Positions 9,377 through 35,911 of a DNA stretch of 64,000 bases are shown piece by piece (the stretch's first letter is position 1; the number at the start of each line of letters is the position of its first letter). Source of the DNA: Paracoccus saliphilus (GTDB taxonomy: Bacteria; Pseudomonadota; Alphaproteobacteria; Rhodobacterales; Rhodobacteraceae); contig NZ_CP067140.1 of NCBI RefSeq assembly GCF_028553805.1, positions 3,100,001-3,164,000 of the forward strand, in the 5' to 3' direction. The translations under genes and the position numbers were made by a program. The notes below the pieces were generated by a model. The model was given only the letters and a program-made list of their open reading frames with translations, did not search any database and was not told the origin of the DNA.

Positions 9377-9411
9377 AGACTAGCTGCCCGCGATATGGGT
9401 GACAACTGTCT
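9377..9411 (-). promoter_or_regulatory. Operator and possible promoter of the TetR gene
   Basis: TGACAACTGTCT (9400-9411) matches the shared palindrome TGAC-N4-GTCA at 11 of 12 positions. Read on the - strand it contains TTGTCA, which is followed after 17 bp by a weak -10, TAGTCT (9377-9382). The operator would therefore cover the -35. Confidence 0.6.
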
Positions 9412-9434
9412 CTCCCTTCCAGGCATGCGCCGTC

Positions 9435-9851
9435 TCAGGCGCTTTTGCGATAGCGGAAAACACCGTTTCCCGTGGCGATATCCTCGCCGGTTTCATCGGT
9501 GATCTTGCCCTCGGCAAAGAATGTCGAGCGTCCGCCGCCGATACGCCTGCCTTCGGCAATCAGGATCTGGCCCGCGGGACGGGAGAGAAAGGTCGTCGTC
9601 AGCGAAAGCGTCATCCCCATTCGCTTGCGCTCCGGGTCACCGGTATAACACCCAGCGTAACCCATCACCGTGTCCAGCAACATGGAATAGATGCCGCCAT
9701 GCGGAATACCGTGGCGATTTTCCAAATAGGGCCGGATCGGCATCTCGAACCGCGCCCAGTCCCGGGACCAGCCGGTGATCCGATATCCCAGATGGGTCTG
9801 GAGCGGATAGGGGTCCTCGACAAGATAATCTTCGACTTCGTCCATATGCAT
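9435..9851 (-). CDS. PaaI-family (hotdog) acyl-CoA thioesterase
   Basis: This 138-residue protein has the single hotdog domain of the PaaI/YbgC-like thioesterases. The catalytic helix region reads RHGIPHGGIYSMLLDTVMG, with the HGG signature and an Asp in the helix. It should hydrolyse an acyl- or aryl-CoA thioester, probably as a homotetramer. An AGAAGA purine run precedes the ATG at 9849-9851; a second in-frame ATG two codons later is an alternative start. It is co-transcribed with the IclR regulator, whose stop is 6 bp upstream. Context suggests a role in clearing CoA esters in the neighbouring catabolic locus. Confidence 0.87.
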   Translation of the reverse strand: MHMDEVEDYLVEDPYPLQTHLGYRITGWSRDWARFEMPIRPYLENRHGIPHGGIYSMLLDTVMGYAGCYTGDPERKRMGMTLSLTTTFLSRPAGQILIAEGRRIGGGRSTFFAEGKITDETGEDIATGNGVFRYRKSA

Positions 9852-9857
9852 TCTTCT

Positions 9858-10655
9858 TCAGCCTGTTCCTTGCCTGCCAATCATGCGCGCGGATTCGATC
9901 AATCTGCTGCCATATTCCGAGATCAGGATATCGGGCGACACCAGAAAGGATGGGCCTCCCACATTCAACCCATATATGCGGTCGCCATCCAGCGCCTCGA
10001 CCGGAACGGCGATTCCGTTGACTTCCTTTCGCCATTTCCCGAACGAAGTGGTGAAGCCATACTTGGCGAAATCCTCCTGCGCCTCGCCCAGGCTTTTCCG
10101 GATCACGGCCTCGTTCTCCGGATGCTCCCTGATGGCGAGTTGCAACATCTCTTCGCGCTCGTCCTGCGGCATGCCGACAAGGACCGCGCGGCCGATGGCG
10201 GAATAGAACAGCGGCAGGCGCGCACCCACATTCATCGTCAGCGATACCGCCTGGTTAGAGCGCCGCACGGCCATGTAGATGACCTGCAACCGGTGCCGTT
10301 CGGCAAGGGCCGCGGTCACATATGGGTTGGGTCCCGAGCACAGCTTGCGCATCTCCTGCTTGGCGAGCGCGCCGATCTCCATCCCGGCCAATGCGCTGAA
10401 CCCGAGCGCGAGCACACCGGCACCAAGCCGATAGGCCCCGGTCGCATCGGATTGCACGAGATAGCCAAGCTTGCACAACGTATATGTCAGGCGGCTGACG
10501 GTGGGCTTGGGCAACCTGGTCCGGCTTGCGATTTCCTGGTTGGTCAGCGTTGTCTCGTCAAGGCGAAAGCAGCGCAGGACCTCGAAGCCCCGGGCAATTG
10601 CAGTGACGAAGTTCCGGTCGCCCTCGGCCTCCATATCATCGTTGATCCTGCTCAT
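9858..10655 (-). CDS. IclR-family transcriptional regulator
   Basis: The 265-residue protein has an N-terminal winged helix (about 15-75) with the IclR hallmark LPKPTVSRLTYTL, and a C-terminal GAF-like effector domain (about 90-255). IclR proteins usually sense carboxylates or aromatic acids. It heads a two-gene operon with the PaaI-like thioesterase. The adjacent TRAP transporter genes, in the same orientation upstream, are obvious candidate targets. A loose GTTCG-N16-CGAAC inverted repeat sits about 70-95 bp upstream of its start, but I would not call it an operator with confidence. Confidence 0.88.
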   Translation of the reverse strand: MSRINDDMEAEGDRNFVTAIARGFEVLRCFRLDETTLTNQEIASRTRLPKPTVSRLTYTLCKLGYLVQSDATGAYRLGAGVLALGFSALAGMEIGALAKQEMRKLCSGPNPYVTAALAERHRLQVIYMAVRRSNQAVSLTMNVGARLPLFYSAIGRAVLVGMPQDEREEMLQLAIREHPENEAVIRKSLGEAQEDFAKYGFTTSFGKWRKEVNGIAVPVEALDGDRIYGLNVGGPSFLVSPDILISEYGSRLIESARMIGRQGTG

Positions 10656-10848
10656 CGCCGGTTCCTTCGAATTCCGCCACCTTGATGGCCTGAACGCCCC
10701 GTATTCATCTTCAAGGCCGTTCGCGAATATTTCACATTTCGAACGGCAATTTCAACGTTATACGAGGTATAGTTCAACCAAAATCGCATGCCCGGCCTGA
10801 ATCGCGGAGGGACCGTCCAGTTTTTGACCTCACAAGACAAGGCCCAAG

Positions 10849-12162
10849 TCAGCCATAGAACAATTCCGGTATGAACAGCACGATCCCAGGGAACAGGATC
10901 ATCAGCAGCACCCCGAGCAGGGTCACCAGAACATAGGGAATGACCGAGGCATAGATATCCCCCATCGTGACATCGGGTGGGGCCACCCCTTTCAGGTAGA
11001 AGAGGTTAAATCCGAAAGGCGGCGTCATGTAGCCCACCTCCATCATGATGATGAAAAGAATGCCGAACCAGATCGGATCGAATCCCGCCTCGCGCACCAC
11101 CGGCAGAAAGACCGGCAAGGTGATCAGCATGATTCCCACCGGATCGAGCACCATCCCGAACAGGAAAAGGACCAGCAGCATGAACAGCAGCGCCCCCCAT
11201 CTGCCGCCGGGAATGAATTCCATGAGGTTGGAAATCAGGCTTTGCGCCCCGAGCGCGGTATAGGCGGCGGAAAAGGCATGCGCCGCGAACAGGATCCACA
11301 TGACCAGCGCCGTCAACCGGAGCGTGGCAACCGCCGTCTCATGCGTCACCTTCCATGAGAGCTGACCGTTGATCATGGTCGCCACCAATGCGCCGAAGAC
11401 CCCGATTGCGGCGGCCTCGGTCGGGGTCGCGAATCCGCCAAAGATGGCCCCCAGCACGATGGTCACGATCAGGATCGGCAGGATGACCGCGCGCAGCGAC
11501 CGCAGTTTCGGCCCCCAGCCAGTCCGCTCCTCCTTCGGCAGCGCCGGTCCCAGTTCCGGCTGCAGCCAGCAGCGCACGCCGATATAGATCGAGACCAGCA
11601 CGAACAGGGTCAAACCGGGACCTATGCCCGCCGCGAACAGGCGACCCACCGAGACCTCGGTCAGCAGCGAATAGAGCACCATCAGGATGGAGGGCGGGAT
11701 CAGGATGCCCCAACCGCCGCCCGCGTTGATCGCGCCCAGTGCCAGCTTCTTGTCATAGCCGCGCTCCAGCATCTTGGGCAGCGCGATGGTACCCATCGTC
11801 ACCACGGCGGCACCCGAAATCCCTGACATCGCCGCGAAGATCACGCAGATCAGCACCGTGCCAATGGCCAGCCCCCCGCGCAGCCCGCCCCACCATTGAT
11901 GCATCATGTCATAAAGATCATTCGCGACGCCAGATTTCTCGAGCAAGATGGCCATGTAAACGAAGAGCGGAATGGCCATCAGCGTGGGCGATTGCATCGT
12001 CTCCCACATTTTCGAGGCGAGCAGGTAGAATCCGATCGCTCCCATCTCGTAATAGAGAAACACCACGGAAACGCCGCCCAGCACGAAGGCCAGTGGCGAG
12101 CCCAGCAGGACGAACAGCAGCAGGCAGCCGAAGAACAGCAGGGTAAGAAGTTCGACGCTCAT
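10849..12162 (-). CDS. dctM: TRAP transporter large permease, DctM
   Basis: This 437-residue protein has about 12 membrane helices and is the cation-coupled transport subunit of a tripartite TRAP system. The beginning LLTLLFFGCLLLFVLLGSPL and the internal GGGWGILIPPSI loop are characteristic. It overlaps the small permease gene by four bases (its ATG lies within the end of dctQ), and the binding-protein gene is further upstream. The substrate is presumably an organic acid feeding the CoA-ligase pathways nearby; that is inference from context only. Confidence 0.93.
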   Translation of the reverse strand: MSVELLTLLFFGCLLLFVLLGSPLAFVLGGVSVVFLYYEMGAIGFYLLASKMWETMQSPTLMAIPLFVYMAILLEKSGVANDLYDMMHQWWGGLRGGLAIGTVLICVIFAAMSGISGAAVVTMGTIALPKMLERGYDKKLALGAINAGGGWGILIPPSILMVLYSLLTEVSVGRLFAAGIGPGLTLFVLVSIYIGVRCWLQPELGPALPKEERTGWGPKLRSLRAVILPILIVTIVLGAIFGGFATPTEAAAIGVFGALVATMINGQLSWKVTHETAVATLRLTALVMWILFAAHAFSAAYTALGAQSLISNLMEFIPGGRWGALLFMLLVLFLFGMVLDPVGIMLITLPVFLPVVREAGFDPIWFGILFIIMMEVGYMTPPFGFNLFYLKGVAPPDVTMGDIYASVIPYVLVTLLGVLLMILFPGIVLFIPELFYG

Positions 12163-12722
12163 AGATGGGTCTCCTGCGGATCAGAACCATGCGGTGCCCC
12201 GGCGGGTTTGCCGAACACATCCTCGGGCACGGGCAAGTCCAGAAGCACCCGAATATCGGCCCAAAGACGGATACAACCCTGCAAAAGCAGCAAAATCGCT
12301 GCGACCGGGATCAGGGATTTCGTCGGCCAGAGAGGCGGATTCCACATGGAATTGGACCGTTCCATCCCCGTTATCGCGTCAGAGGCAAGCACCCATCCCT
12401 GCCAGAGAAGCACCCCGACAAAGAGCAGGAACAGCGGCCAGGTCAGAATATCCAGCAGCGCCTTCCGCTTGCGGCTGAAGCTGCCATAGAAGATATCGAC
12501 ATTCACATGCTCTCGCTCGGCCAGCAGGTATCCACCGCCGATGATCGCATAGCCTCCGAAGATCAGCGTGGCCAGTTCGGCGGTCCAGATCGCCGGTTGC
12601 CCGACCACATAGCGCATGACCACGTCGGCCAACAGCAAACCGAAAAGGATCAGGACCGCGAGAGAAGCCCAACGCCCGATGAAACGATTGAAACGCGTAA
12701 TGACACGTGCCGCTTGAAACAT
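12159..12722 (-). CDS. dctQ: TRAP transporter small permease, DctQ
   Basis: The 187-residue protein has four predicted helices and the DctQ-like central segment EREHVNVDIFYGSFSRKRK. It partners DctM in the inner membrane. The ATG at 12720-12722 is preferred. It has AAGGA about 10 bp upstream, while an in-frame TTG 36 bases earlier adds residues of no family character. It is coupled to dctM by a four-base overlap. Upstream, 136 bp separate it from the binding-protein gene, and that gap contains a perfect hairpin. Confidence 0.9.
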   Translation of the reverse strand: MFQAARVITRFNRFIGRWASLAVLILFGLLLADVVMRYVVGQPAIWTAELATLIFGGYAIIGGGYLLAEREHVNVDIFYGSFSRKRKALLDILTWPLFLLFVGVLLWQGWVLASDAITGMERSNSMWNPPLWPTKSLIPVAAILLLLQGCIRLWADIRVLLDLPVPEDVFGKPAGAPHGSDPQETHL

Positions 12723-12818
12723 GATCCAAAATCCTTGTGCTGGCGTTGCGACATGCAACCCGATCAGAACAGTCCGGGATTACCCTCATCCGATCCGGAT
12801 TCGCGAACCCATGTGAAC

Positions 12819-12849
12819 GGTTCGCGGCGAGCAGTTTCCGCCGCGAACC
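12819..12849 (-). terminator. Hairpin between dctP and dctQ
   Basis: A perfect 11-bp stem, GGTTCGCGGCG with CGCCGCGAACC, has a 9-base loop and begins about 10 bp after the dctP stop. There is no strong U-tract after it on the - strand, so partial termination or 3'-end protection of dctP mRNA is more likely than full termination. Confidence 0.75.
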
Positions 12850-12858
12850 GCATCAGCA

Positions 12859-13920
12859 TCAACTGTAACCAAGATCCGTCATCAGGGTGCGGTAGATATC
12901 CGCCGCCTTGGTTGCCTGTTCGCTCTTTTGCCCCTCGGCTTCGAGGATCTTCGTGGACGCCTCGGCCAGAAGTTCGAGAACATCGTCCGGCAGGGTCACG
13001 ACCTCCACCCCCTGGTTGGCAACGCCATCGGCGAGCGCCAGCGCCTCCTGATGCTGATATTCAGCCGTGCGCAGGAAGAACCGCGCCTGCACCGTGTCCA
13101 GGAAGGCGGTGCGCAGATCGTCGCTCAACTCCTCCAGCGCGTTCAGGTTGACGATGTAGGAATCCGTCGTCTGCGCCAGGACGGGCTTGTAGTGATACTT
13201 GCACACCTCCCACAGCGACATGGATTGCGCCCCGATCGCCGCCCCCCAATGCGCCCCGTCGACAACGCCGGAACTCAATGCCTGGTACAGCTCCGATCCG
13301 GGGACATATTGCGGGGCGGCTCCGGCGGCGGAAAGATAATCCAGCATCGCGCCCGAAGACCGGATCTTCAGACCGCTGAAATCGGCGGCGGCTTCGATCT
13401 TCTTCGACGCGGTCATCTCGACCGGCAACACCTTTTCCGACAGAAGCATGACGCCCTTGGGTGCCAGCTCCTCGTTCAGCAATGCCTCGAGCCCGAGATT
13501 CTTCAGCGCATGTTCGAACTCCCAAGCCTGGCGGAACGTGCCGGGAATGCCATAGACGAAATTCGCGACACTCGCCTGATCCTCGAAATAGGACGCGGCG
13601 AGCGTGCCCATCGGCACCACGCCCTTGCTGACGATATTGAAGATATCCGGACCCTTGGCGAATTCCCCGGCGCCGAGCAATTCCATCTTGAAGGCCCCGT
13701 CGGTCCGCTCTTCCAGGGTGCTGGCCATCTTGCCGAGGCTGGCGTCGAAGGATGCCGAGGCTTTGGGCCAATGCGACTGGATACGCCAGGTCACCTCTCC
13801 GGCGGCAATTGCCTTGCCGACAAGCGCCGGCGACGCGACGGCGGCGACCGCACCGCCGCGAAGCAGGGCACGCCGGTTCATTCCCTTGTGCGTTGCAGTG
13901 GTTTTCAGTGTGTTTTTCAT
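12859..13920 (-). CDS. dctP: TRAP transporter substrate-binding protein, DctP
   Basis: The 353-residue periplasmic binding protein starts with a twin-arginine signal (NRRALLRGGA followed by a hydrophobic Ala-rich stretch and AIAA), so Tat export is likely. The mature part has the DctP pattern WRIQSHWP, the core around GLKIRSSG, and DGAHWG. It delivers substrate to DctQM. Tat-exported DctP proteins are known among those for keto acids and other organic acids. It is the first gene of the dctPQM operon. One imperfect copy of the shared TGAC-N4-GTC(A) palindrome is 97 bp upstream. Confidence 0.92.
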   Translation of the reverse strand: MKNTLKTTATHKGMNRRALLRGGAVAAVASPALVGKAIAAGEVTWRIQSHWPKASASFDASLGKMASTLEERTDGAFKMELLGAGEFAKGPDIFNIVSKGVVPMGTLAASYFEDQASVANFVYGIPGTFRQAWEFEHALKNLGLEALLNEELAPKGVMLLSEKVLPVEMTASKKIEAAADFSGLKIRSSGAMLDYLSAAGAAPQYVPGSELYQALSSGVVDGAHWGAAIGAQSMSLWEVCKYHYKPVLAQTTDSYIVNLNALEELSDDLRTAFLDTVQARFFLRTAEYQHQEALALADGVANQGVEVVTLPDDVLELLAEASTKILEAEGQKSEQATKAADIYRTLMTDLGYS

Positions 13921-14016
13921 GTTTTCCTCCCTGTTTTCAGCCAGCCGGTCCGTCTTCTTCGAAACACGGCCGCGACAAGTCTCGATATGCTAATCAGCCC
14001 AGGATACCCCCGACCC

Positions 14017-14028
14017 TGACAAACGTCC
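14017..14028 (-). promoter_or_regulatory. Imperfect shared operator upstream of dctP
   Basis: TGACAAACGTCC matches TGAC-N4-GTCA at all but one arm position; a further GTCA follows at 14029-14032. The promoter around it is unclear, unlike the other copies. Confidence 0.4.
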
Positions 14029-14037
14029 GTCAAATTC

Positions 14038-16041
14038 TCAACTTATTTCTTCTGACGAAGCCGTGTAACCCGTTGCCGTTTCGTCCGGCGGTCTCCGCTT
14101 TCTCGCGTCGCCCCAGATCAGGAAGACGAGTACGGCGGATGCGGCCCCTCCGGCCAGCGTCGTGATCAGGCCGGGGAAGCTGAACGCGAACCCGGCCGCC
14201 GCCAGTGGCAGACGCAACCACGGACGCACCGAACCGACGCCAAGCAGATAGCCTTCAAGCCCGCCCGACAGCAGGATGATCCCCGCGATGATCGATGGCA
14301 GAACGTAGATCAGCGGCGTCAGATCTCCCTGAAGCACCAGCGCTGGCTGGAACAGGAAGAACAGCGGAACAAAATAGATCACCACGCCAAGGCGCATCGC
14401 GGTGAACGAGGTCTGCATCGGGCGCGCCCCGGCGATTGTCGCGGCCAGGAAGGCCGCCGCGCCGACAGGTGGCGTGATCACCGACAGCATCGCGTAATAG
14501 ACGATGAAGAAATGCACCGCGATGGTGTTCAGGCCGCCGACATTGATGATCGCAGGCGCCAGCGTCACGGCCAGGAAGATATAGGCCACGATGGCAAGAC
14601 CCGCCATTCCCATGATGAAACAGGCCAGAACTCCGAACAGGATGATCAGGTAGATATTCCCTCCGCCAAGCGCGACCAGCCCGGACGTCACCGACCCGGT
14701 CACGCCGGTGATCGTCAGCGCGCTGACCACGAAGGCGATGGGCAGGATGATGGCCGCGGTCTGCGTGACCAGCAGACCGATCTGCCGCAGGGTCTGGAAC
14801 AGGCGGCGCGGTGTCATGCGGGTTTCCGGCCGCAGGAAGCTCAGCAGGATCATGAGACCGCTGGCATACCATGGCGCGTAGTATTCCCAACGCATATACA
14901 GCAGTCCCCAGACCAGGAAGATCAGCACCAGCAGGAACGGCCAGCCCCGCAGCAGGACCTTGCCGGCATTGGGGATCTCTGCTTCCTTCATCCCGGTCAG
15001 CCCCTTGCGCGCCGCATAGGCATCGACCTGCAGGATAAGCCCGAAATAGAACAGCAGCGAGGGCAGGATGGCGGCAACCATGACCGTCGCGTAATCCACA
15101 CCGATGGTGATCGCCATGACGAACGCAATGGCCCCCATGACCGGCGGCATGACGACACCGCCGGTCGAGGAACAGGCCTCGATGGCCGCCGCGTAATGCG
15201 CTGGATAGCCCACTTTCTTCATGGTCGGGATGGTGATCGAGCCGGTACCCGCGATATTCGAGAAAATCGATCCCGAAAGCGATCCGAAAAATGCCGAGGC
15301 GACGATGGAGACCTTGGCCGGGCCGCCGCGATAACGCCCGAAACCCGCATTCGCGAGATCGATGAAGAACTCGCCCGCGCCGGTCGCGATCAGCACCCCG
15401 GCAAAGACGAGAAAGCCCAGCACGATCTCGGCGACGATCTTGGTGGTGATGCCCAGCATCCCCTCGGCGCGGAAGACATGCGCCTCGATCATCTGCTCGA
15501 AACCGTAGGGAATGCCCATCAGCAGTCCCGGAAACAGGTCGGCGACAAGCGGATAGAGCCCCAGCAGAAAGACCACCAGCAAGAACGGCAACCCGCCCGA
15601 ACGCCGCGCCAGTTCCAGCATCAAGAGCCAGATCACCACTCCCATGGGAAGATTGGTCCAGCCAGCTTGCACCATGTCCCATGCATGGAGCGAGAACCAG
15701 AGACTGATCCCCAGGGCGGTGACCGCGGCGGCGATATCGAAAAGCGGGAAGCGTTTCTGGCCCTGGAAGGCAGGGAGCGCGACGAAGGCCATCGCGGTGA
15801 ACAGCCCGATGAAGATCCAGTAATACTGCCCCTCCAGCAGCCGTTGCCCCATGATAGGCACGCCGAAGACATAGGCCAGCCCGAACCCCAGCCCGATGGT
15901 GCAGAGCGCGACGAACAGGATACTGGGAAGCGTGAAGAACCCGCCGAGACGGCTATGATCGGGGTCGGCGGCGGGTGCCGCCGCGGGCACACCGCCCGCA
16001 TCCGTGACATCCGACGAGGTTTCAAGTTCAGAATGCGACAT
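14038..16041 (-). CDS. TRAP transporter fused 4TM/12TM permease
   Basis: The 667-residue protein fuses the small and large TRAP permease subunits, as is usual for TAXI-type systems. A short polar N-terminus (residues 1-30) is followed by about 16-18 hydrophobic helices. Family motifs include GGVVMPPVMGA and the ITPPVGAAAFLAA stretch. The ATG at 16039-16041 is preferred; a GTG at 16101 would place a hairpin inside the coding sequence. The gene follows its TAXI binding-protein gene, so the two form a complete transporter. The substrate is unknown. Confidence 0.92.
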   Translation of the reverse strand: MSHSELETSSDVTDAGGVPAAAPAADPDHSRLGGFFTLPSILFVALCTIGLGFGLAYVFGVPIMGQRLLEGQYYWIFIGLFTAMAFVALPAFQGQKRFPLFDIAAAVTALGISLWFSLHAWDMVQAGWTNLPMGVVIWLLMLELARRSGGLPFLLVVFLLGLYPLVADLFPGLLMGIPYGFEQMIEAHVFRAEGMLGITTKIVAEIVLGFLVFAGVLIATGAGEFFIDLANAGFGRYRGGPAKVSIVASAFFGSLSGSIFSNIAGTGSITIPTMKKVGYPAHYAAAIEACSSTGGVVMPPVMGAIAFVMAITIGVDYATVMVAAILPSLLFYFGLILQVDAYAARKGLTGMKEAEIPNAGKVLLRGWPFLLVLIFLVWGLLYMRWEYYAPWYASGLMILLSFLRPETRMTPRRLFQTLRQIGLLVTQTAAIILPIAFVVSALTITGVTGSVTSGLVALGGGNIYLIILFGVLACFIMGMAGLAIVAYIFLAVTLAPAIINVGGLNTIAVHFFIVYYAMLSVITPPVGAAAFLAATIAGARPMQTSFTAMRLGVVIYFVPLFFLFQPALVLQGDLTPLIYVLPSIIAGIILLSGGLEGYLLGVGSVRPWLRLPLAAAGFAFSFPGLITTLAGGAASAVLVFLIWGDARKRRPPDETATGYTASSEEIS

Positions 16042-16074
16042 GGTATCGGCCCGGTTGTGGCAATTGACGCTGAT

Positions 16075-16096
16075 TGCCGGCCCGTCGGGGCCGGCA
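16075..16096 (-). terminator. Hairpin between TAXI gene and its permease gene
   Basis: A perfect 9-bp stem, TGCCGGCCC with GGGCCGGCA, has a 4-base loop and starts about 11 bp after the TAXI stop on the - strand. No U-tract follows, so mRNA stabilisation or partial termination is likely. Confidence 0.75.
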
Positions 16097-16107
16097 GGCA
16101 CTTCCGA

Positions 16108-17304
16108 TCACAGCCTCGAACGGAACCCTTCGAGATCCGCCGTGTGCTTTTCCAGGATGGCGATGAAGTCGGGGTTGTCGAAACTGATCTTCACCCCCTG
16201 CTCGCCCGCCTCTTCCATCGCCGCCTTGCGTGCCGCGATCCAGGTATCCATCTTCTCGATGGCGGCATTGTTCCAGGCGTCATCGGCCTCGCTCCACTGC
16301 CCGATCTCGCGCAGGTATTTCATCGTTCCCTCATGCACCGGAAGCGGGGACCGGTCGAGATATTTGCGGAATTCCTCGACCGACATCCGCGCAGCCAGGG
16401 GATGGGTATCCTTGTAGCTGTCATAAGCGGTGTGCATCCATTTCGCGAGATTGTAGACAAGCTCGGTCTCGGTATCCGCGGGCACTCCGTACAAGAAATT
16501 CGATGTCGCCCCGCCGACGCCCCGCGCCGTCTTCACGCCCATCGAGATCTCGGTCGGCACAAGCATCGGGCGCGAGTCGAGATATCTCGACCAGCCCTCG
16601 GAATTGCCGGGTTCGAGCGAAAGCCAGCGAATCCCGCCGGGCGCGCCCTCCATCTCGGACAGGACGGAGCTGATCGCCGCGCAATAGGCGACATCGGCCT
16701 TGCCCTCGACGACCGAGCGGCAATTCTCGGCATAGCTGGAAGCGGGAACATAGGAAATCAGCGATTCAGCCTCCTCCGCGCTCAGGCCCAGATATGCTGG
16801 CAGCCCCTGCTCCACGGCGGACACCATGGGCGGAGAGAAGAGACCAGCCGCCACGCTGTATCCGCCCTTCTTCAGGTCCTCCAGCGATTGCAGGTCGGAA
16901 TCCCCGGCCACGACATAACCCCAGGGCGTGTCGTTATGGTGCCAGACGACCCGCTGCGGCACCGGTTTCTGGCTTGCATATCCGTCTATGCCTTGCGTCT
17001 GGTAACGCATTTCCGCGGCTGAAACGGAGGAGACCATGATGTCGCGGCGATCCGTCAGGCGGGTATAGCGCATGGTTTCGCTGTCCTCGGGCACGACCCG
17101 GACAGTCATGCCCGTGTCCGCTTGCAGGATAGGCGCCCATCCATTGGTCGAGGCGAAGCTGCCGCTGGCCGTTCCGGGCGTACCGATCACCAGCAGGCGC
17201 GGCCAGTCGAAACCTTCCTGCGCAAATGCTGTGCCCGACAGGCCAAGCACCGCCACAATCGAGCCGAGGATACCTGCGGTTCTGATATTCGGCCTTTTCA
17301 TCAT
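16108..17304 (-). CDS. TAXI-family TRAP substrate-binding protein
   Basis: The 398-residue periplasmic protein has a classical signal peptide ending GTAFA-Q, and the TAXI-family beginning LLVIGTPGTASGSF. Later it has the AGLFSPPMVSAVE segment and a C-terminal DNPDFIAILEKH region. It delivers ligand to the fused permease encoded just downstream. A very strong GGGGAGGAG ribosome site precedes the ATG-ATG start. Its promoter, about 170 bp upstream, carries a perfect copy of the shared operator. This ties this uptake system to the acyl-CoA regulon. Confidence 0.92.
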   Translation of the reverse strand: MMKRPNIRTAGILGSIVAVLGLSGTAFAQEGFDWPRLLVIGTPGTASGSFASTNGWAPILQADTGMTVRVVPEDSETMRYTRLTDRRDIMVSSVSAAEMRYQTQGIDGYASQKPVPQRVVWHHNDTPWGYVVAGDSDLQSLEDLKKGGYSVAAGLFSPPMVSAVEQGLPAYLGLSAEEAESLISYVPASSYAENCRSVVEGKADVAYCAAISSVLSEMEGAPGGIRWLSLEPGNSEGWSRYLDSRPMLVPTEISMGVKTARGVGGATSNFLYGVPADTETELVYNLAKWMHTAYDSYKDTHPLAARMSVEEFRKYLDRSPLPVHEGTMKYLREIGQWSEADDAWNNAAIEKMDTWIAARKAAMEEAGEQGVKISFDNPDFIAILEKHTADLEGFRSRL

Positions 17305-26342: not shown

Positions 26343-28082
26343 ATGACAAGTTCAAGGCAGGTAGAGGCGGATACGAACATCTCTCAATGCCCGATGACCT
26401 TCGAGCAGGCCGTGCAACATGTCGAAAGCAGCAATCCGATGTTCCAGACAACATCGGTGACGGTCCGGGGAATCACCTACAAGGCGTTCAGGAACTGCCC
26501 GCGAAACCTGCCCGAGATGATGCGCTCCAGCAGGGAAAAGCATGACAACGGAGCCGCCGATTACCTGGTCTATCGCGACGAGCGCTGGAGCTATGACGCG
26601 TTTTGCAGCGATGTCGACAGGATGGCCCATATCCTGCGCGACCGGTTCGGCCTTTCAAAGGGAAGCCGGGTCGCCATCGCGATGCGCAATTACCCCGAAT
26701 TCCTGGTCATGATGCTCGCCATATCCTCGATCGGCGGCGTGGCGGTCCTTTTGAACGCCTGGTGGACGACGGAGGAATTCGAATACGCTCTTCAGGACAG
26801 CGGGGCGAAATTCGTCGTCGCGGACGGTCCCCGGCTTGAACGGCTGCAGCCATTGATCGCCCCGCTCTCTCTGACCACGATCGGCGTGCGGGACGGCGAA
26901 GCGCTTGCATCCCACGCCTACACGGCTTTGCGGGACAGCATCACGCCCGGCGCCATGCTCGAGACCGAGATCGAGCCCGACGAGGATTTCGCGATCATCT
27001 ATTCCTCGGGCACGACGGGTCAGCCGAAAGGCGTCGTCCAGACCCATCGCGGCGCGATCACGGCGGTCTATTCATGGCTTATGCAGGTTGCCATCGGGCC
27101 GTTGGTCATGCCGCCCGGACCCGACACGCCCCCCATGCCGCCGGCATCGGTTCTGATTGTCACGCCGCTTTTCCACGTCACCGCCTCGCATACGCAGTTC
27201 CTCTACAGCCTGGCCGCACCCGCCAAGGTGACGCTGCTGCATAAATGGGATCCCCATGAGGCGATCCGGCTGATCAAGGAGGAGAATGTCACCCGCTTCC
27301 TCGGCGTGCCGACGCAATCGGCCGAACTCATGGACGCCATTCGCGACACCGGGGAAACATTGCCCTCGCTCAGATATATCGGTGCCGGCGGGGCCAAGCG
27401 GCCCGCAGCGCAGGTGGCGAAACTGGCCGAGACCTTCCCGATGGCGAATGTGGCGACGGGCTGGGGAATGACCGAAACCAACGCCCTCGGGATCGGCATG
27501 CTCGGCGATGCCTATAAGCAGCGCCCGAACGCTGCCGGACGTCTCTATCCGCCGGTGCAGGAAATCCGCATCCTTGACGACGACGGCAACGAGGTTCCAA
27601 ACGGCACCCTGGGCGAGATCACCGTCAAGAGCCTTGCCAATATGCGATGCTACCTGAACAAGCCGGAAGAGACGGCGGCAATCCTGAAGGACGGTTGGCT
27701 GAGCACGGGCGATCTGGGCGTGATCGACGATGACGGTTTCGTCACCATCCTGGATCGCAAGAAGCATATCATCATCCGGGGGGGCGAGAATATCTCCTGC
27801 CTCGAAGTCGAAGGTGCCCTGCATCGGCATCCCGATGTGATCGAGGCCTGCGCCTTTTCCGTTCCCGACGAAAGATTGGGCGAGATCGTGGGGATTGCCG
27901 TCCATCTGCGCGACGAAGCCTCTTTGACCCATGCCGAGATGGCGGGTTTCCTGAAGGACCATCTGGCCAGGTTCAAGATCCCCGAGAAATTGTGGTGCCA
28001 GCACGAACCGCTTTTGCGCGGCACCACGGACAAGACAGACCGCCGTGCCATTCGCGCCGCCTGTCTCGGGCAATCCTCCTGA
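26343..28082 (+). CDS. Acyl-CoA ligase (class I AMP-forming)
   Basis: The 579-residue enzyme activates a carboxylic acid to its CoA ester. It has the ATP-binding motif IIYSSGTTGQPKGVVQTH, the WGMTETNA adenosine motif, the hinge ILDRKKHIIIRGGENIS, and the catalytic lysine in GTTDKTDRR (K564). It resembles long- or medium-chain fatty-acyl and steroid-acid ligases more than the ligase at 3038. GGGAGGGG lies 5-12 bp before the ATG. It is followed after 28 bp by the hydroxyacyl-CoA dehydrogenase, so it probably heads the operon 26343-31001. Confidence 0.9.
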   Translation: MTSSRQVEADTNISQCPMTFEQAVQHVESSNPMFQTTSVTVRGITYKAFRNCPRNLPEMMRSSREKHDNGAADYLVYRDERWSYDAFCSDVDRMAHILRDRFGLSKGSRVAIAMRNYPEFLVMMLAISSIGGVAVLLNAWWTTEEFEYALQDSGAKFVVADGPRLERLQPLIAPLSLTTIGVRDGEALASHAYTALRDSITPGAMLETEIEPDEDFAIIYSSGTTGQPKGVVQTHRGAITAVYSWLMQVAIGPLVMPPGPDTPPMPPASVLIVTPLFHVTASHTQFLYSLAAPAKVTLLHKWDPHEAIRLIKEENVTRFLGVPTQSAELMDAIRDTGETLPSLRYIGAGGAKRPAAQVAKLAETFPMANVATGWGMTETNALGIGMLGDAYKQRPNAAGRLYPPVQEIRILDDDGNEVPNGTLGEITVKSLANMRCYLNKPEETAAILKDGWLSTGDLGVIDDDGFVTILDRKKHIIIRGGENISCLEVEGALHRHPDVIEACAFSVPDERLGEIVGIAVHLRDEASLTHAEMAGFLKDHLARFKIPEKLWCQHEPLLRGTTDKTDRRAIRAACLGQSS

Positions 28083-28110
28083 CATCACCGGAAACAAGCA
28101 AGGAATTCCC

Positions 28111-29421
28111 ATGGCTCAAGACACCATGACGACATCGCCCGCGTCCGAGGACAGCAACACCTATATCACGGCCGCCACCAAGGCTGCCTGGACCGTTCCG
28201 GGGCTGGATGCCTCCACGCCCCGCCGCGACATCAAGACCGTCGGCATTATCGGCGCGGGCACGATGGGAGGCGGTATCGCGATGAACTTCGCGACCGCCG
28301 GGTTCCCGGTCAAGATCGTCGAGACCACGCAGGAAGCGCTTGATCGCGGCTTGCAGGTCGTCCGCAAGAATTACCAGCGCAGCGCCGACAAGGGCCGCTT
28401 CCCGCAGGACGAGGTCGGGAAACGGATGGACCGGCTGGAGGGACGGCTTGCCATCGCGGATCTGGGCGATTGTGATCTGGTCATCGAGGCGGTGTTCGAG
28501 AACATGGATCTCAAGCACAAGATCTTCACCGAGCTGGACAAGGTCATGAAACCGGGTGCCATCCTGGCCACCAACACCTCGGCCCTGAATATCGACGAGA
28601 TTGCCAGCGTGACGAAACGCCCCGAGGATGTGATCGGTCTGCATTTCTTCTCGCCCGCCAACGTCATGAAACTGCTCGAAATCGTGCGCGCCGAGCATAC
28701 AAAAAATGACGTGGTCGCGACCTGCATGGACCTGGCCCGCAAGATCGACAAGATCGCGACGCTGGTCGGCGTCTGCCCCGGATTCGTCGGCAACCGGATG
28801 CTGTTCACACGGCAAAAGCAGGCGATGAAGCTGATCCGCAAAGGGGTGCTGCCCTGGGATATCGACGCCGCCATCAATGCTTTCGGCTTCAAGATGGGAC
28901 CGTTCCAGATGAGCGACCTCGCCGGGCTGGACATTGGCTGGTCCAAGGGGGCCACGACCCAGAACCCGATCCGCGACGCCCTGTGCGAGATGGACCGGCG
29001 CGGGCAAAAGACCAAGGCGGGGTATTACGATTACGACGATGCGCGCAAACCGATCCCCTCGGAGGTCACCGCGGGCATCATCCGCGACATCACCGGGGCA
29101 GAGCCGGTCACGATGTCCCAGGATGAGATCATCGAGACCTGCATCTTCCCGATGATCAACGAGGCAGTGAAGATCCTTGAAGAGAACAAGGCGCAGCGCC
29201 CCTCGGATATCGATGTGGTCTGGCTGAACGGCTACGGCTGGCCCGCGGACAAGGGCGGCCCGATGTTCTTCGGCGATATGGTCGGTGCCAAGGCGGTGCT
29301 GGCCCGGATGGAAAAGCTTGGCGCCGAAGATCCCGAGTTCGCGCCCGCCGACACGCTGCGCAAACTTGCCGAAACGGATGGCAAGTTCACCGAAATCGAC
29401 TGCGGAGGGCTGAAGACATGA
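28111..29421 (+). CDS. 3-hydroxyacyl-CoA dehydrogenase (stand-alone)
   Basis: The 436-residue enzyme has an NAD-binding Rossmann domain with [17 protein letters not shown] near residue 46. It also has the catalytic-dyad region [17 protein letters not shown], and two C-terminal 3HCDH domains. This is the domain set of the C-terminal half of FadB, without the N-terminal hydratase. The gene after it supplies a separate hydratase through a four-base overlap. It oxidises (S)-3-hydroxyacyl-CoA to 3-oxoacyl-CoA. The ATG at 28111 has CAAGGA 7-8 bp upstream. Confidence 0.93.
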
Positions 29422-30197
29422 GCTATGAATTCATCACGACCGAACGGCGGGGCCATATCCTCGTCGTCACCATGAACCGGCCCGAGGTCTACAACGCGAT
29501 GCATTCCGACATGCATCACGAGATGAGCGAATGCTGGGACAGTTTCGCCGCCGATCAGGACCTGTGGGTCGCGGTCCTCACCGGGGCGGGCGACAAGGCT
29601 TTCACCGCCGGGAACGATCTGAAGGCCACTGCGAAAGGCGGCAACAAGAAGGGCATGCCGCCCACCGGTTTTGCCGGGCTTAGCTCGCGCTTTGACCTGG
29701 AAAAGCCGATCATCGCAGCGGTCAACGGATTCGCCATGGGTGGCGGCTTCGAGACGGCCTTGTCCTGCGATATCATCATCGCCTCCGAGCGCGCAAAATT
29801 CGCCCTGCCCGAGGTGAAGGTGGGCTTCTTCGCCGCCGCCTCGGGGGTGCAGCGGCTGTCGCGCTATATCGGCCGCCTCGCCGCGCAAGAGCTGATGTTC
29901 ACCGGCCGCACGATCGATGCGCAGGAAGCGCTCAAGCTTGGCTGTTGCAACGAGGTCGTGCCGCATGAGCAGTCGCTGTCCCGCGCCATGGAACTGGCCG
30001 GGCAGATCTGCACCGTTTCCCCGTCCTCGGTGAAGGCGACCAAGCGCGTGCTCAACCAGCTCGCCGTGACCGAGGGCCTGCCGGGAAGCCTTGAATATTC
30101 CCGCGAAGTCCAGCGCGACCTGGCACAGACCGAGGATTTCTCGGAGGGCGTCAAAGCCTTTGTCGAAAAGCGCAAACCCGATTGGGTCAACCGATAG
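29418..30197 (+). CDS. Enoyl-CoA hydratase (crotonase)
   Basis: The 259-residue crotonase has both hydratase glutamates, E112 in GGGFETALSCDI and E132 in LPEVKVGFF. It should therefore be a true hydratase acting on trans-2-enoyl-CoA. The oxyanion-hole segment is AFTAGNDLKA. It overlaps the dehydrogenase gene by ATGA, giving equal translation of the two activities that FadB carries in one chain. The segment after E132 (FFAAASGV) departs from the usual GAGG turn. Confidence 0.92.
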   Translation: MSYEFITTERRGHILVVTMNRPEVYNAMHSDMHHEMSECWDSFAADQDLWVAVLTGAGDKAFTAGNDLKATAKGGNKKGMPPTGFAGLSSRFDLEKPIIAAVNGFAMGGGFETALSCDIIIASERAKFALPEVKVGFFAAASGVQRLSRYIGRLAAQELMFTGRTIDAQEALKLGCCNEVVPHEQSLSRAMELAGQICTVSPSSVKATKRVLNQLAVTEGLPGSLEYSREVQRDLAQTEDFSEGVKAFVEKRKPDWVNR

Positions 30198-30236: not shown

Positions 30237-31001
30237 ATGTTGTTCGACCTCACAGGAAAAACCGCCCTGCTGACCGGAGCCTCGAAGGGCATGGGCCTTG
30301 CGATGGCCAAGGCGCTGGCGGAACATGGCGCGACCGTGGTGATCTCGGCCCGCAAGCAGGACCAGCTTGACGCGGCCGCAGCCGAGATCAACGCGATGGG
30401 GAAGGGCAAGGCACATGCCGTTGCCTGCAATGTCGGCTACAAGGATCAATTACAGGCGCTGGTCGACCAGACCCATTCCCTTGCCGGCAAGATCGATGCG
30501 GTGATCGGCAATGCCGGGGTGAACCCCTATTACGGCCCGACCTCGGAAATCCCCGACGACGCCTATGACAAGACCATGAAGGCCAATGTGCAATCCAATC
30601 TGTGGCTGGCCAAAATGGTCGCGCCGGACATGATCGAGAAGGGGTCGGGGTCGATGGCGTTCACCTCTTCCATCGGCGCGTTCAAACCCTCGGTCATGCT
30701 GGGGACATATGGCATGTCAAAACTGGCGCTGATCGGGCTGGTACGCAATCTTGCCGCCGAGTTCGGGCCCAAGGGCTTGCGCTTCAACGCCATCTGCCCC
30801 GGCCTCGTGCGCACGGAATTCGCCCGCGAACTCTGGGACAATCCCGATGTCGAGAAGCGGATCAAGAACGACATCCCCCTGCGCCGCCTCGGCGAGCCCG
30901 AGGATTTCGCCGGTCTCGCGGTCTATCTCGCATCCGATGCCAGCCGCTACATGACCGGGCAGGCGCTGACCGTCTGCGGCGGCTCGAACATGTGGACTTG
31001 A
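30237..31001 (+). CDS. SDR-family NAD(P) oxidoreductase
   Basis: This 254-residue classical short-chain dehydrogenase has the cofactor motif LLTGASKGMGLAMA at residue 12 onward and the NAGVN motif. The catalytic region has Ser in FTSSIGAF, and the YGMSK tetrad. The residues after the first beta strand (SARKQ) are compatible with NADP. It ends the operon that starts with the CoA ligase, 39 bp after the hydratase. The likely substrates are hydroxy- or ketoacyl compounds from the pathway. Confidence 0.9.
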   Translation: MLFDLTGKTALLTGASKGMGLAMAKALAEHGATVVISARKQDQLDAAAAEINAMGKGKAHAVACNVGYKDQLQALVDQTHSLAGKIDAVIGNAGVNPYYGPTSEIPDDAYDKTMKANVQSNLWLAKMVAPDMIEKGSGSMAFTSSIGAFKPSVMLGTYGMSKLALIGLVRNLAAEFGPKGLRFNAICPGLVRTEFARELWDNPDVEKRIKNDIPLRRLGEPEDFAGLAVYLASDASRYMTGQALTVCGGSNMWT

Positions 31002-31025: not shown

Positions 31026-31895
31026 TTACGCCTTGCGCGTCACGGGGCGGACCAGCCCTTCCTGCGCCACGCTGGCGACCAACCGTCCCGCACGGTCATA
31101 GATCAGCCCGCGATTGAAGCCGCGCGCGCCTCCGGTAAACGGGGCATCCAGCGCGTAGAGGTGCCAATCCTCGAACTGGATCGGGGTGTGAAACCACATC
31201 GCGTGATCGAGACTGGCGCTCATCACATTGCCCTTCAGCCATGTCAGGCCATGCGGACGCAGCGACGAGCCCAACAGGCTCATGTCGGATGCATAGGCCA
31301 GCAGGCAATGCTGCATCTCGGGCGGCTGGCCTTCCGCGCCCGGCATCCGGAACCACAGGTGATTCCGGTCATCTGTCTTGACCGGGTCGAGCAAGTCGCG
31401 CGGCGCGACTTCGCGGACATCTATCGGCCTTTCGCGCAGGAAATCCGGCTGCTTGTTCTTGGGGATCCGGTCGGCATAGGCGGCCCGCAGGTCATGCTGG
31501 TCGGTCAGGTTCTCGGGACCTTCGGTGTCCGGCATGGGGTGCTGGTAATCCCACCCCGCCTCTTCGATCTGGAACGAGGCGGACAGGTTCAGAATCTGCT
31601 TTCCATGCTGGATGGCTACCACGCGCCGGGTGGTGAAGCTGCCGCCGTCGCGGGCGCGGTCGACCTGGTAGATGATCGGGATCTCGGGATCGCCCGGCCG
31701 GATGAAATAAGCATGCAGTGAATGGCAGGCCCGATCCGGCACCGTCCGGTAAGCCGCCATCAGGGCCTGCGCGATCACATGCCCCCCGAAGATCCGCGCC
31801 CCACCCTGCCCCTGATAGGCAAAGCCCCGGAACATATCGACTTCGAGCCGTTCGATATCGAGCAGTTCAAGCAGTTTTCGCGCAGCTTCGGTCAT
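31026..31895 (-). CDS. tesB: Acyl-CoA thioesterase II
   Basis: The 289-residue double-hotdog thioesterase has the family motifs FRGFAYQGQGGARIFGGHVI near the start and SLDHAMWFHTP in the second domain, where the catalytic Asp lies. The C-terminal QEGLVR end is also typical. It hydrolyses medium- and long-chain acyl-CoAs and may relieve CoA trapping. It is convergent with the SDR gene and carries the shared operator 51 bp upstream. Confidence 0.93.
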   Translation of the reverse strand: MTEAARKLLELLDIERLEVDMFRGFAYQGQGGARIFGGHVIAQALMAAYRTVPDRACHSLHAYFIRPGDPEIPIIYQVDRARDGGSFTTRRVVAIQHGKQILNLSASFQIEEAGWDYQHPMPDTEGPENLTDQHDLRAAYADRIPKNKQPDFLRERPIDVREVAPRDLLDPVKTDDRNHLWFRMPGAEGQPPEMQHCLLAYASDMSLLGSSLRPHGLTWLKGNVMSASLDHAMWFHTPIQFEDWHLYALDAPFTGGARGFNRGLIYDRAGRLVASVAQEGLVRPVTRKA

Positions 31896-31922: not shown

Positions 31923-31958
31923 CTTATCGCAGCAATCCCAAGGATTGACAACTGTCAG
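31923..31958 (-). promoter_or_regulatory. Promoter and shared operator of tesB
   Basis: TGACAACTGTCA (31946-31957) is a perfect core. On the - strand its TTGTCA half doubles as a -35, with GATAAG (31923-31928) 17 bp downstream as the -10. Repressor binding would block the -35. Confidence 0.65.
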
Positions 31959-33387: not shown

Positions 33388-33455
33388 GACCGTATGTTCC
33401 TTGCATTGCCGCCGCCAGCGGGCCTACACGGGTTCGCCATGCAGACCTCGCCGGA

Positions 33456-34235
33456 TCAGGCGCCCTTGGTCATCGGGTTGTATTTCCGGTTCAGCCGCTG
33501 CATCCCGCCGATCCAGCGATCATAATCATCCGTCTTGCGGCGCATATATTCCAGCACTTCCTTATGTGGAAGCACCAGGAAGGTCTCGCTCTCGATCGCG
33601 GCGAGGCATTCCCCGGCCACGACATCGGGCTCCAGCAGACCGTTGACGCTGGCAACGCCGCCCTCCTTGCCCCTGATCATGTCGGTATTGACCGCTTGCG
33701 GGCAAAGCACCGAAACCTTGATCCCCTGATCACCATAGGTCAGCGCCAGCCATTCCGAGAACGCGACCGCCGCATGTTTCGTCACCGCATAGGGGGCCGA
33801 GCCGACCTGGCTCAGCAATCCGGCGGCAGAGGCGGTGTTCAGGAAGTAGCCGCCGCCCCGCTCGATCATCCGGGGAACCATGTGGCGGGCTGTCCAGATA
33901 TGGGACATCACGTTGATCTCCCAAATATCCTGCCATTGCTCATCCGGCACCTCGGGGCCACCGCGGATCGAGATCCCGGCATTGCAGCAGAACAGGTCAA
34001 TCGGCCCCAGCCCGGTTTCGACCTCCTCGATCAGCGCCTTGATCTCATCCTCGGCGGTCACATCGACCCTTCGCCCGATCCCGCCGATCTCGCTTGCCGT
34101 CTGCATCACCCCGTCTTCATTGCGGTCCGCGCAGATGATCTGCTTCGCCCCGGCCGCATGAAACCGATGGGCGAGGGACCGGCCGATTCCCCCGGCAGCC
34201 CCGGTCACGACAACGATACGGTCCTTGACCTGCAT
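33456..34235 (-). CDS. SDR-family oxidoreductase
   Basis: The 259-residue short-chain dehydrogenase has the cofactor motif VVVTGAAGGIGRSLA near residue 8, CNAGIS, catalytic Ser in NTASAAG and YAVTK. An Asp at the end of the second strand (ICADRN) favours NAD. It is separated by only 2 bp from the ACAD10/11-type dehydrogenase gene upstream. Its likely role is oxidation or reduction of a hydroxyl or keto group in the same pathway. Confidence 0.9.
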   Translation of the reverse strand: MQVKDRIVVVTGAAGGIGRSLAHRFHAAGAKQIICADRNEDGVMQTASEIGGIGRRVDVTAEDEIKALIEEVETGLGPIDLFCCNAGISIRGGPEVPDEQWQDIWEINVMSHIWTARHMVPRMIERGGGYFLNTASAAGLLSQVGSAPYAVTKHAAVAFSEWLALTYGDQGIKVSVLCPQAVNTDMIRGKEGGVASVNGLLEPDVVAGECLAAIESETFLVLPHKEVLEYMRRKTDDYDRWIGGMQRLNRKYNPMTKGA

Positions 34236-34237
34236 GA

Positions 34238-35533
34238 TTAATCTCTCCTGCCCCGGGTCCGTATCGCAGCTTGACGGTCATTGGAATTCTCGAAAGCCTG
34301 CCGCTCGGCGCGTGCGATAACATGGTGATGCACCTCGTCGGGTCCATCGGCGAAACGCAGGGTGCGTTGCTTCATATACATCTCGGGCAGTTCCGACCAC
34401 TGGCTGATGCCCGTCGCGCCATGCATCTGCATCGCGTCGTCGATGATCTTGCAGCATTTCTCGGGCACCATGGCCTTGGCCTTGGACACCCAGATCCGGG
34501 CTTCCTTGTTGCCCAGCACATCCATCGCCTTTGCCGCCTTGAGGACCAGCAACCGCATGGCGTCGATCTCGATCCGGCTGCGCGAGATGGTTTCCATGTT
34601 CTTGCCCAGATCGATGATCTTCTTGCCGAACGCCTCGCGCGTCAGCCCGCGATGGATCATCAGGTCGAGCGCCTTTTCCGCCGCACCGATAGAGCGCATG
34701 CAATGGTGAATCCGGCCCGGCCCCAGCCTGAGCTGGCTGATCTCGAAGCCGCGCCCCTCGCCCCAGAGGATGTTTTCCTCGGGCACCCGGACATCGGTGA
34801 AACGGATATGCATATGGCCATGCGGGGCATCGTCATGTCCGAACACGTTCATCGGCCCCAGGATCTCGACCCCCGGCCAATCGATCGGGACAAGGATCTG
34901 GCTTTGCTGCCGGAACGGCTCGGCATCGGGCGAGGTCTTGACCATGACGATCATGATCTTGCAGCGCGGATCCCCTGCCCCCGAGATGTAATATTTCTCG
35001 CCGTTGATCACCCATTCGCCGTTTTCCAGCACGGCACGGGTGCCGATATTCCTGGCATCCGACGAGGCGACATCCGGCTCGGTCATCGCGAAGGCCGAGC
35101 GGATTTCACCATTCAGCAGCGGTTTCAGCCACTTGTCCTTCTGCTCCCGCGTGCCGACCCGCTCCAACACTTCCATATTGCCGGTATCGGGCGCCGCGCA
35201 GTTCAGGGATTGCGGCGCAAGCGGGTTCTTCCCCAGTTCGAAAGCGATATAGGCATAATCCAGATTGGACAGCCCCTCGCCGGTTTCGGCATTCGGCAGG
35301 AAGAAATTCCACAACCCGGCGGCCTTCGCCTTGGCCTTGAGGTCCTCGATGATCTCAATCTGCCCCGGCGCGAAGGCAAAGCGCTCTTCGCGGTTCCGGC
35401 CAAGCTCTTCATACTCGGCCAGCGCGGGGTCGCAATTGTCGCGGATATGCCCGACGACCTTTTCGAGCAACGGCCTCGCGGCTTCGGACATTGCCAGATT
35501 GTGAAGTTCATCCTGCGGATTCGCCTGTGTCAT
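34238..35533 (-). CDS. Acyl-CoA dehydrogenase, ACAD10/ACAD11-type
   Basis: The 431-residue dehydrogenase has FAMTEPDVASSDARNI for FAD and substrate binding, and the C-terminal LRFADGPDEVHH motif that marks the ACAD10/11 group. In the human proteins this domain is fused to an aminoglycoside-phosphotransferase-like kinase. Here the kinase is a separate gene, divergent, at 35937. The pair is known from other bacteria to process 4-hydroxyacyl-CoAs by phosphorylation and elimination. Its promoter carries a perfect shared operator. Confidence 0.92.
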   Translation of the reverse strand: MTQANPQDELHNLAMSEAARPLLEKVVGHIRDNCDPALAEYEELGRNREERFAFAPGQIEIIEDLKAKAKAAGLWNFFLPNAETGEGLSNLDYAYIAFELGKNPLAPQSLNCAAPDTGNMEVLERVGTREQKDKWLKPLLNGEIRSAFAMTEPDVASSDARNIGTRAVLENGEWVINGEKYYISGAGDPRCKIMIVMVKTSPDAEPFRQQSQILVPIDWPGVEILGPMNVFGHDDAPHGHMHIRFTDVRVPEENILWGEGRGFEISQLRLGPGRIHHCMRSIGAAEKALDLMIHRGLTREAFGKKIIDLGKNMETISRSRIEIDAMRLLVLKAAKAMDVLGNKEARIWVSKAKAMVPEKCCKIIDDAMQMHGATGISQWSELPEMYMKQRTLRFADGPDEVHHHVIARAERQAFENSNDRQAAIRTRGRRD

Positions 35534-35773
35534 GTTGCTCCCCTAACTTGTCTCAATTCGCTGCCTTGTCCTGCATATCCGGCTTACCCGGCTGGATTCG
35601 CGCCGACACTGCAGCCTTCGCCATAAGCTTCACGGCCCCGCGGATCAGTGTTCGGCGGCCGGAACCCGGCACCCGCCATTGTTCATTCACTCGACTGATC
35701 GGAAGGGTCATGGTGAAGCCGCCCGGATGAATTCCCGTCGCTTCCGACCTTCTCCTGTGACAAGACCGGAAAA

Positions 35774-35816
35774 CTGACAGTTGTCAGTAATAGCTTCCGA
35801 CCGCGAAACCGGTCAA
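35774..35816 (-). promoter_or_regulatory. Promoter and perfect shared operator of the ACAD10/11-type gene
   Basis: On the - strand TTGACC (35811-35816) is followed after 18 bp by TATTAC (35787-35792). This runs into CTGACAACTGTCAG (35774-35787). It gives a leader of about 240 bases before the ATG. Confidence 0.75.
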
Positions 35817-35865
35817 GCCCCGAAGCTGCATTTTTGCGTATCATGCAAATTCTGTCGTCGGCCGA

Positions 35866-35911
35866 TTGACCCCGCCCTCCGCCACAATTATAAATTTCTG
35901 ACAAATGTCAG
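35866..35911 (+). promoter_or_regulatory. Promoter and perfect shared operator of the kinase gene
   Basis: TTGACC (35866-35871), 17 bp, TATAAA (35889-35894), then CTGACAAATGTCAG (35898-35911) from three bases after the -10. This is the clearest promoter in the window, with the operator over the expected start site and 25 bp before the ATG. Confidence 0.8.

Follow-up and report, generated by a model that had tools for sequence, protein, structure and literature searches.

We analysed a 64,000-nucleotide stretch of the Paracoccus saliphilus genome (the window; bases 3,100,001–3,164,000 of contig C1, in a 4.62-Mb genome of two contigs) and found a 14-base palindrome, CTGACA-NN-TGTCAG (CTGACANNTGTCAG), at promoters of genes for solute uptake and acyl-coenzyme A (acyl-CoA) degradation. 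This palindrome is very probably the binding site of a TetR-type repressor encoded nearby (8671..9339, minus strand), because distant bacteria with this TetR also have the palindrome next to the same genes, and none was found there in the examined relatives without it. On comparative grounds, we consider it highly likely that this TetR represses a local multi-promoter regulon that joins TRAP uptake and acyl-CoA degradation. Besides a thiolase, a thioesterase, an acyl-CoA synthetase and a dehydrogenase/kinase pair, the locus encodes two TRAP systems, hydratases and several acyl-CoA dehydrogenases.

The 14-mer is common to the strong copies and is longer than the palindrome first reported for the locus, TGAC-N4-GTCA. 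With at most one mismatch, five copies occur in the window (at 17434, 26082, 31945, 35774 and 35898) against 0.04 expected, and none of 100 shuffles reached five. Allowing two mismatches gives seven copies, the additional ones lying at 14016 and, unrelated, at 51219. A scan of the whole genome returned six copies with one mismatch or fewer, five of them in the locus: all three perfect copies are there, as are two of the three one-mismatch copies, and the sixth (C1:4089578) is placed where two open reading frames (ORFs) converge, between their 3′ ends. Because the bare 12-base TGAC-N4-GTCA occurs 122 times across the genome (the reversed pattern, 31 times), it is too short and unspecific to serve as a genome probe. 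This abundance, together with the resemblance of the half-sites to −35 boxes, would favour reading the palindromes as chance or composition artefacts of promoter elements, but the excess of 14-mers over expectation and their conservation across many genera make that account very unlikely for the five strong sites; it is likely for a weaker copy at 9400.

An extended form of the motif, TTGACNNNNGTCAA, was rejected as carrying the wrong flank: it has five genomic sites, zero of them in the window, and none in the 109 loci scanned. A different palindrome, TTGACAGCTGTCAA, occurs as three identical copies within 1.5 kb on contig C2 (bases 2228, 3495 and 3644) and is apparently unrelated to the regulon.

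A first-pass annotation of the window had listed seven copies of TGAC-N4-GTCA. Its positions are right and five of the copies are exact (17435, 26083, 31946, 35775 and 35899), but it gave a mismatch only for the copy at 14017, and the copy at 9400 has one as well. As it also stated, all seven fall in gaps, outside genes in an ORF-based gene model. The predicted operator of the minus-strand TAXI–trapTM genes (17434..17447) overlaps a −10 box. The perfect match at 26082..26095 lies in the divergent gap between the crotonase gene and the acyl-CoA synthetase operon, and therefore may serve both. The predicted operator upstream of tesB (31945..31958) has one mismatch. Two further perfect matches lie 124 bp apart, one on the promoter of an ACAD10/11-type acyl-CoA dehydrogenase (hereafter ACAD; 35774..35787, minus strand) and one on that of a kinase gene (35898..35911, plus strand); paired sites 97–171 bp apart also occur in other loci. 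All five strong sites recur at these genes in Paracoccus methylarcula and Paracoccus alkanivorans, three of them with other central bases and the tesB site with one changed arm letter. Their weight-matrix scores range from 15 to 26.

The arrangement of these sites relative to promoter elements is as expected for a repressor, because the palindrome overlaps or abuts the −10 box at four window promoters. As the first-pass annotation had read from the sequence, the TAXI, crotonase (minus strand), ACAD and kinase promoters each have TTGACA or TTGACC, a gap of 17–18 bp and a TAT-type −10, with the palindrome overlapping the −10 or standing three bases beyond it. At tetR and tesB, the TTGTCA half itself would be the −35, 17 bp from TAGTCT (tetR) and GATAAG (tesB), again in agreement with that annotation. 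Across 99 distinct sites, promoter-like −35/−10 spacing (at least 9 of 12 matches) was found with the −10 abutting the site at 28 and with the −10 ending 4–10 bases before it at 24, compared with 0 to 5 at eight other offsets. On the 3′ side of the palindrome, the weight matrix continues with G-(A/C)-T-A, complementary to such a −10 box.

Two copies depart from this pattern. Upstream of dctP, a weaker predicted operator copy (14016..14029; CTGACAAACGTCCG) has two mismatches to the 14-mer and a weight-matrix score of 18 (for the copy at 14017). The same letters occur in P. methylarcula, and related sites lie upstream of dctP in loci L036, L037, L038, L048, L049 and L162. The region upstream of dctP in P. 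alkanivorans has no site at one mismatch or fewer; the dctP copy is thus kept in part of the relatives. The element upstream of tetR (9400..9411) is a degenerate half-palindrome that reads TTGTCA-N17-TAGTCT on the minus strand. P. methylarcula, P. alkanivorans and Paracoccus onubensis do not share its right half and retain at most the TTGTCA half, and it scores −4. The changed right half and this score lead us to reject it as an autoregulatory tetR operator; it is probably the −35 region of tetR. The earlier argument for the TetR as reader, that a copy lies upstream of its own gene, consequently fails, whereas the nomination of the TetR itself is supported by comparison among genomes.

We collected relatives of this TetR from named genomes, mostly alpha- and gamma-proteobacteria, in a search that finds close relatives only. 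The resulting 61 loci include near-duplicates (for example, L036 and L037) and represent Paracoccus, Sulfitobacter, Pseudooceanicola, Martelella, Breoghania, Marinobacter, Alloalcanivorax and Pseudomonas; the nearest named orthologues are those of P. methylarcula (92% identity) and P. alkanivorans (90%). These loci, 1.12 Mb in total, hold 101 copies of the motif at one mismatch or fewer, in 90 distinct 22-base contexts, and no copy of the reversed control. At least one copy is present in 52 of the 61 loci. Rather than falling inside genes as often as in promoters, none of the 101 copies lies within a homology-defined gene and 89 lie at most 400 bp upstream of TAXI, acs, tetR, APH, ACAD, ech1, hcdh, dctP, ech2, sdr2 or thiolase genes. 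A cruder ORF-based model, in which 82% of bases count as inside, places 84 copies outside ORFs and 17 inside, many of these ORFs being short. In 20 of the 61 loci a site lies at most 400 bp upstream of tetR, and in many of them the gap is shared with a divergent gene.

A regulator of another class might also be proposed as the reader. CRP/FNR-type regulators (NnrR, DNR and FixK) can have boxes of the form TTGAC-N4-GTCAA, in which the arm core and spacing are those of our motif. The string TGACNNNNGTCA occurs in a paper on nitrogen-oxide regulons. However, TTGAC-N4-GTCAA has no exact match in the 109 loci, the targets are not respiratory genes, and the outer C and G of our motif are fixed across the 90 distinct sites in the weight matrix, in part as an effect of hit selection. 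We regard a CRP/FNR-type reader as extremely improbable.

The presence of the motif around ACAD follows that of the TetR. Among 198 genomes of the family, TetR orthologues of at least 54% identity occur in the genome of the window and three others, and three more genomes have only 30–32% matches. ACAD orthologues occur in 15 of the 198, 3 with the TetR and 12 without. Of the former, 3/3 have a motif copy no further than 1.5 kb from ACAD, against 0/12 of the latter. We added 18 named genomes with the TetR, 16 of which have an ACAD orthologue; three of these 16 have the motif within 1.5 kb. Because ACAD often lies inside an operon headed by acs, the gene for acyl-CoA synthetase, we widened the flanks to as much as about 9 kb on each side. 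The 12 loci without the TetR still contain zero motif copies, and the operon start is covered in nine of them, as an acs homologue of at least 56% is present in the same stretch. The 16 named TetR-bearing loci comprise 2 positive on 1.5 kb, 11 scored on wide stretches (8 positive) and 3, all positive, from stretches in G201, G202 and G205. Overall, the motif is found near ACAD in 16/19 loci with the TetR and 0/12 without (Fisher 3.2e-6, ignoring shared ancestry and unequal flanks). The earlier suggestion that a single repressor ties TRAP uptake to acyl-CoA enzyme operons is well supported by this contrast and by the 61 loci.

Several of seven Sulfitobacter and Roseobacter ACAD regions have sites upstream of acs; comparing the seven for palindromes with 5-base arms in common had yielded no candidate that was taken further. 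In G201, G202 and G205, which belong to this group, a site lies upstream of an acs-hcdh-ech2-ACAD-sdr operon and tetR is on another contig, which argues for action in trans; G201 has a further site upstream of dctP.

Some observations weigh against a TetR-read regulon of this kind. The flanks are unequal, in that 5 of the 19 TetR-bearing loci were scored on 1.5 kb and all others, with or without the TetR, on wide stretches; on 1.5-kb flanks alone, the comparison is 6/19 against 0/12 (Fisher 0.06). The 18 named genomes were chosen by us and are not a random draw, and the G201, G202 and G205 stretches were taken after their sites had been seen. Three of the 19 TetR-bearing loci have no good site, although two of these (L183 and L184) have degraded versions upstream of acs, and 9 of the 61 TetR loci have no site in the examined flank. 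With a TetR of 54% identity, G101 lacks any motif copy across the 80 kb surrounding tetR, and an ACAD orthologue was not found there. Roseobacter GAI101 has 15 sites genome-wide at one mismatch or fewer, none perfect. In the lineage of the window, no conserved site accompanies tetR itself. Promoter-like spacing also peaks at offsets of +30 and +36 (11 and 9 of 99 sites), partly because a palindrome half resembles a −35 box.

The protein proposed to read the palindrome has a TetR-type DNA-binding domain (PF00440, 54.0 bits; cut-off 24). The core of its recognition helix, NQASIYDY, is identical in 60/60 readable loci, down to 41% overall identity, with slight variation in the residues that flank it (L042 and the fragment L094 were left out); it is also invariant in 35 aligned TetR proteins. 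An AlphaFold model (pLDDT 88.8) is helical only, and Foldseek matches it best to TetR-type regulators (TMq about 0.6). Weak fold matches to BkaR (6yj2), PhlH, PfmR (3vpr) and Bacillus FadR (3whb), with TM about 0.6, are suggestive only. Co-occurrence is a correlation among relatives that share ancestry, so an unlinked regulator distributed together with the TetR could in principle read the site. Against this, the TetR gene borders or lies near the sites in many alpha- and gamma-proteobacterial loci despite changed gene orders, and its recognition-helix core is invariant. We consider an unlinked reader improbable.

An IclR-type regulator (9858–10655, minus strand), two genes upstream of tetR, is another local candidate, and the IclR family often controls catabolic operons. 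In three Sulfitobacter/Roseobacter genomes, an IclR protein of 52–55% identity is encoded about 13 kb from ACAD, and in G202 and G205 that IclR gene has a motif copy at a distance of about 200 bp. Orthologues of at least 50% identity, however, are present in only 7 of 23 TetR-bearing genomes tested, with a best match of 37–46% in 13; G230, G231 and G211 have no IclR match at E ≤ 1e-20, yet their tetR loci (L068, L070 and L090) hold the motif. It is therefore unlikely that the IclR protein, rather than the TetR, reads the palindrome. In P. methylarcula, the IclR match is divided between two overlapping pieces.

The core enzymes of the regulon suggest a class of substrate. ACAD (34238..35533, minus strand) is of the ACAD10/11 (LvaC) type: among solved structures, it matches ACAD11 8v3u with 385 bits, 8v3v with 383, 4hr3 (putative) with 370 and 2wbi (ACAD11) with 361, and the next match has 127. 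Its motif ADGPDEVH carries the catalytic Asp, at the place of which the 8v3v mutant has Asn. The adjacent phosphotransferase (APH, LvaA-like; 35937..37019, plus strand; PF01636) matches the ACAD11 kinase domain with 249 bits over residues 10–356 and has the HGD (HGDFRLGN) and DWE motifs; its likeness to LvaA is judged from the ACAD11 kinase domain. According to passages in two reports, ACAD10/11 and LvaA/LvaC act in a route in which a 4-hydroxyacyl-CoA is phosphorylated and then turned into an enoyl-CoA (PMC12440821, PMC11342911). The association of an ACAD11-like ACAD and kinase with acs, sdr, hydratase and hydroxyacyl-CoA dehydrogenase genes thus suggests catabolism of 4-hydroxy or 4-oxo acids, by way of 4-hydroxyacyl-CoA.

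Binding, repression, an inducer and a substrate class are what we infer from the observed sites, from where they lie and how they are conserved, and from their occurring together with the TetR. We propose that a TetR dimer would bind CTGACA-NN-TGTCAG and, by overlapping or abutting the −10 of the TAXI/TRAP, crotonase, ACAD and kinase promoters, would prevent RNA polymerase from starting. It would also act on tesB, on the acyl-CoA synthetase operon and probably on dctP, from the sites that lie upstream of them. The inducer may be a CoA thioester into which the imported acid is converted, the most plausible candidates being a 4-hydroxyacyl-CoA and an intermediate further along the route, and the release of the TetR would switch on uptake and degradation together. 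A broader proposal, which we put forward tentatively as possible rather than probable, is that the TetR represents a widely distributed, undescribed regulator dedicated to 4-hydroxyacyl-CoA catabolism, the bacterial ACAD10/11 pathway. Such a regulator would be released by 4-hydroxy- or 4-phospho-acyl-CoA, would couple TRAP import of hydroxylated acids to the kinase/dehydrogenase pair in alpha- and gamma-proteobacteria, and would act in trans when unlinked.

The other genes of the locus include importers and further enzymes of acyl-CoA metabolism. On the minus strand, a 4HBT thioesterase gene (9435–9851) lies just upstream of tetR, followed by the IclR gene, a dctP-dctQ-dctM TRAP transporter (10849..13920; PF03480, PF04290 and PF06808), a fused TRAP permease (14038..16101; TIGR02123, 475 bits, cut-off 321) and a TAXI TRAP solute-binding protein (16108..17304; PF16868, with TIGR02122 at 79.0 bits, below its cut-off of 84.35). 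The crotonase-family gene ech1 (25153..25947, minus strand; PF00378) is followed on the plus strand by the run acs-hcdh-ech2-sdr1. This run encodes the acyl-CoA synthetase (26313..28082; PF00501), a 3-hydroxyacyl-CoA dehydrogenase (28045..29421; PF02737/PF00725 from residue 65 on, the true start probably lying inside this ORF), an enoyl-CoA hydratase (29418..30197; PF00378) and a short-chain dehydrogenase (30237..31001; PF13561). Back on the minus strand are a tesB-like acyl-CoA thioesterase II (31026..31895; PF02551, with TIGR00189 at 256 bits, below its cut-off of 293) and a second short-chain dehydrogenase, sdr2 (33456..34235; PF00106).

An ORF at 31955–33406 was rejected as a gene, having no protein family or homologue; the real gene is the overlapping ORF 31972–33387, which encodes a MatE-family transporter. 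The end of this gene adjoins the predicted tesB operator, and its product might be an exporter tied to the pathway. At 19522–21979, an adjacent pair of acyl-CoA dehydrogenase genes is closest to PimC/PimD, yet far below both cut-offs, suggesting a two-subunit enzyme. Genes of the histidine-phosphatase family lie in the window at 17525–18175 and 22933–23589 and elsewhere in L165 (2872–3516), L167 (2424–3068) and L182 (10175–10819). Such genes repeatedly adjoin a kinase gene of the same family, in L182 directly between dehydrogenase and kinase, and a phosphatase partner of the phospho-acyl-CoA route is a possible role.

The levulinate (lva) pathway of Pseudomonas putida is regulated by LvaR, a σ54-type activator, and presumably has in LvaD the counterpart of the short-chain dehydrogenase of our locus. 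An LvaA-like kinase, an LvaC-like dehydrogenase and an acyl-CoA synthetase are common to that pathway, as far as parts of the two reports describe it (PMC12440821, PMC11342911), and to the window, which differs in that a predicted TetR operator regulon takes in TRAP uptake together with beta-oxidation genes.

The window TetR shares its fold with known repressors of acyl-CoA catabolism (PsrA, Bacillus FadR, BkaR/Fad35R, FadP and LiuQ). It falls far below the NCBIfam equivalog cut-offs for PsrA (33 bits; cut-off 300) and Bacillus FadR (30; 200), and does not reach those for BetI (29; 201), MftR (39; 225) and two further members of the TetR family, RutR (22; 368) and AcuR (28; 247). The operators of PsrA, FadR, BkaR, FadP and LiuQ presumably differ from CTGACANNTGTCAG; that of RutR also holds TTGAC arms, and the RutR and AcuR targets are unrelated to those in the window. 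A 2016 survey of 33 Proteobacteria regulators, in the part consulted, gives fatty or branched acyl-CoA catabolic targets for PsrA, FadP and LiuQ, and its table has FabR, FadP, LiuQ, PsrA and RutR among the TetR members (PMC5343134). In contrast to PsrA-type repressors, the window TetR has TRAP transporters and a kinase/dehydrogenase pair of the ACAD11/Lva type among its predicted targets. Among the matches listed from open-licence literature, in some cases part of all matching papers (RegPrecise and subscription papers were outside the scope), we found no description of the motif or of such a TetR with a TRAP, acyl-CoA or lva context.

Taken together, the comparisons point to a regulon that is real and conserved and belongs to a regulator of the TetR family, in all likelihood a repressor; it is new as far as searched and ordinary in kind. 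The pathway concerned, for which the enzymes in mammals (ACAD10/11) were assigned in 2024–2025 according to parts of the same two reports (PMC11342911, PMC12440821), thereby gains an operator that is defined, a probable reader and a list of targets. A regulator of this type may be of use as a sensor for hydroxy-acid CoA esters. The 14-mer predicts pathway genes and importers of their substrates in Paracoccus, Sulfitobacter, Pseudooceanicola, Marinobacter and Alloalcanivorax.

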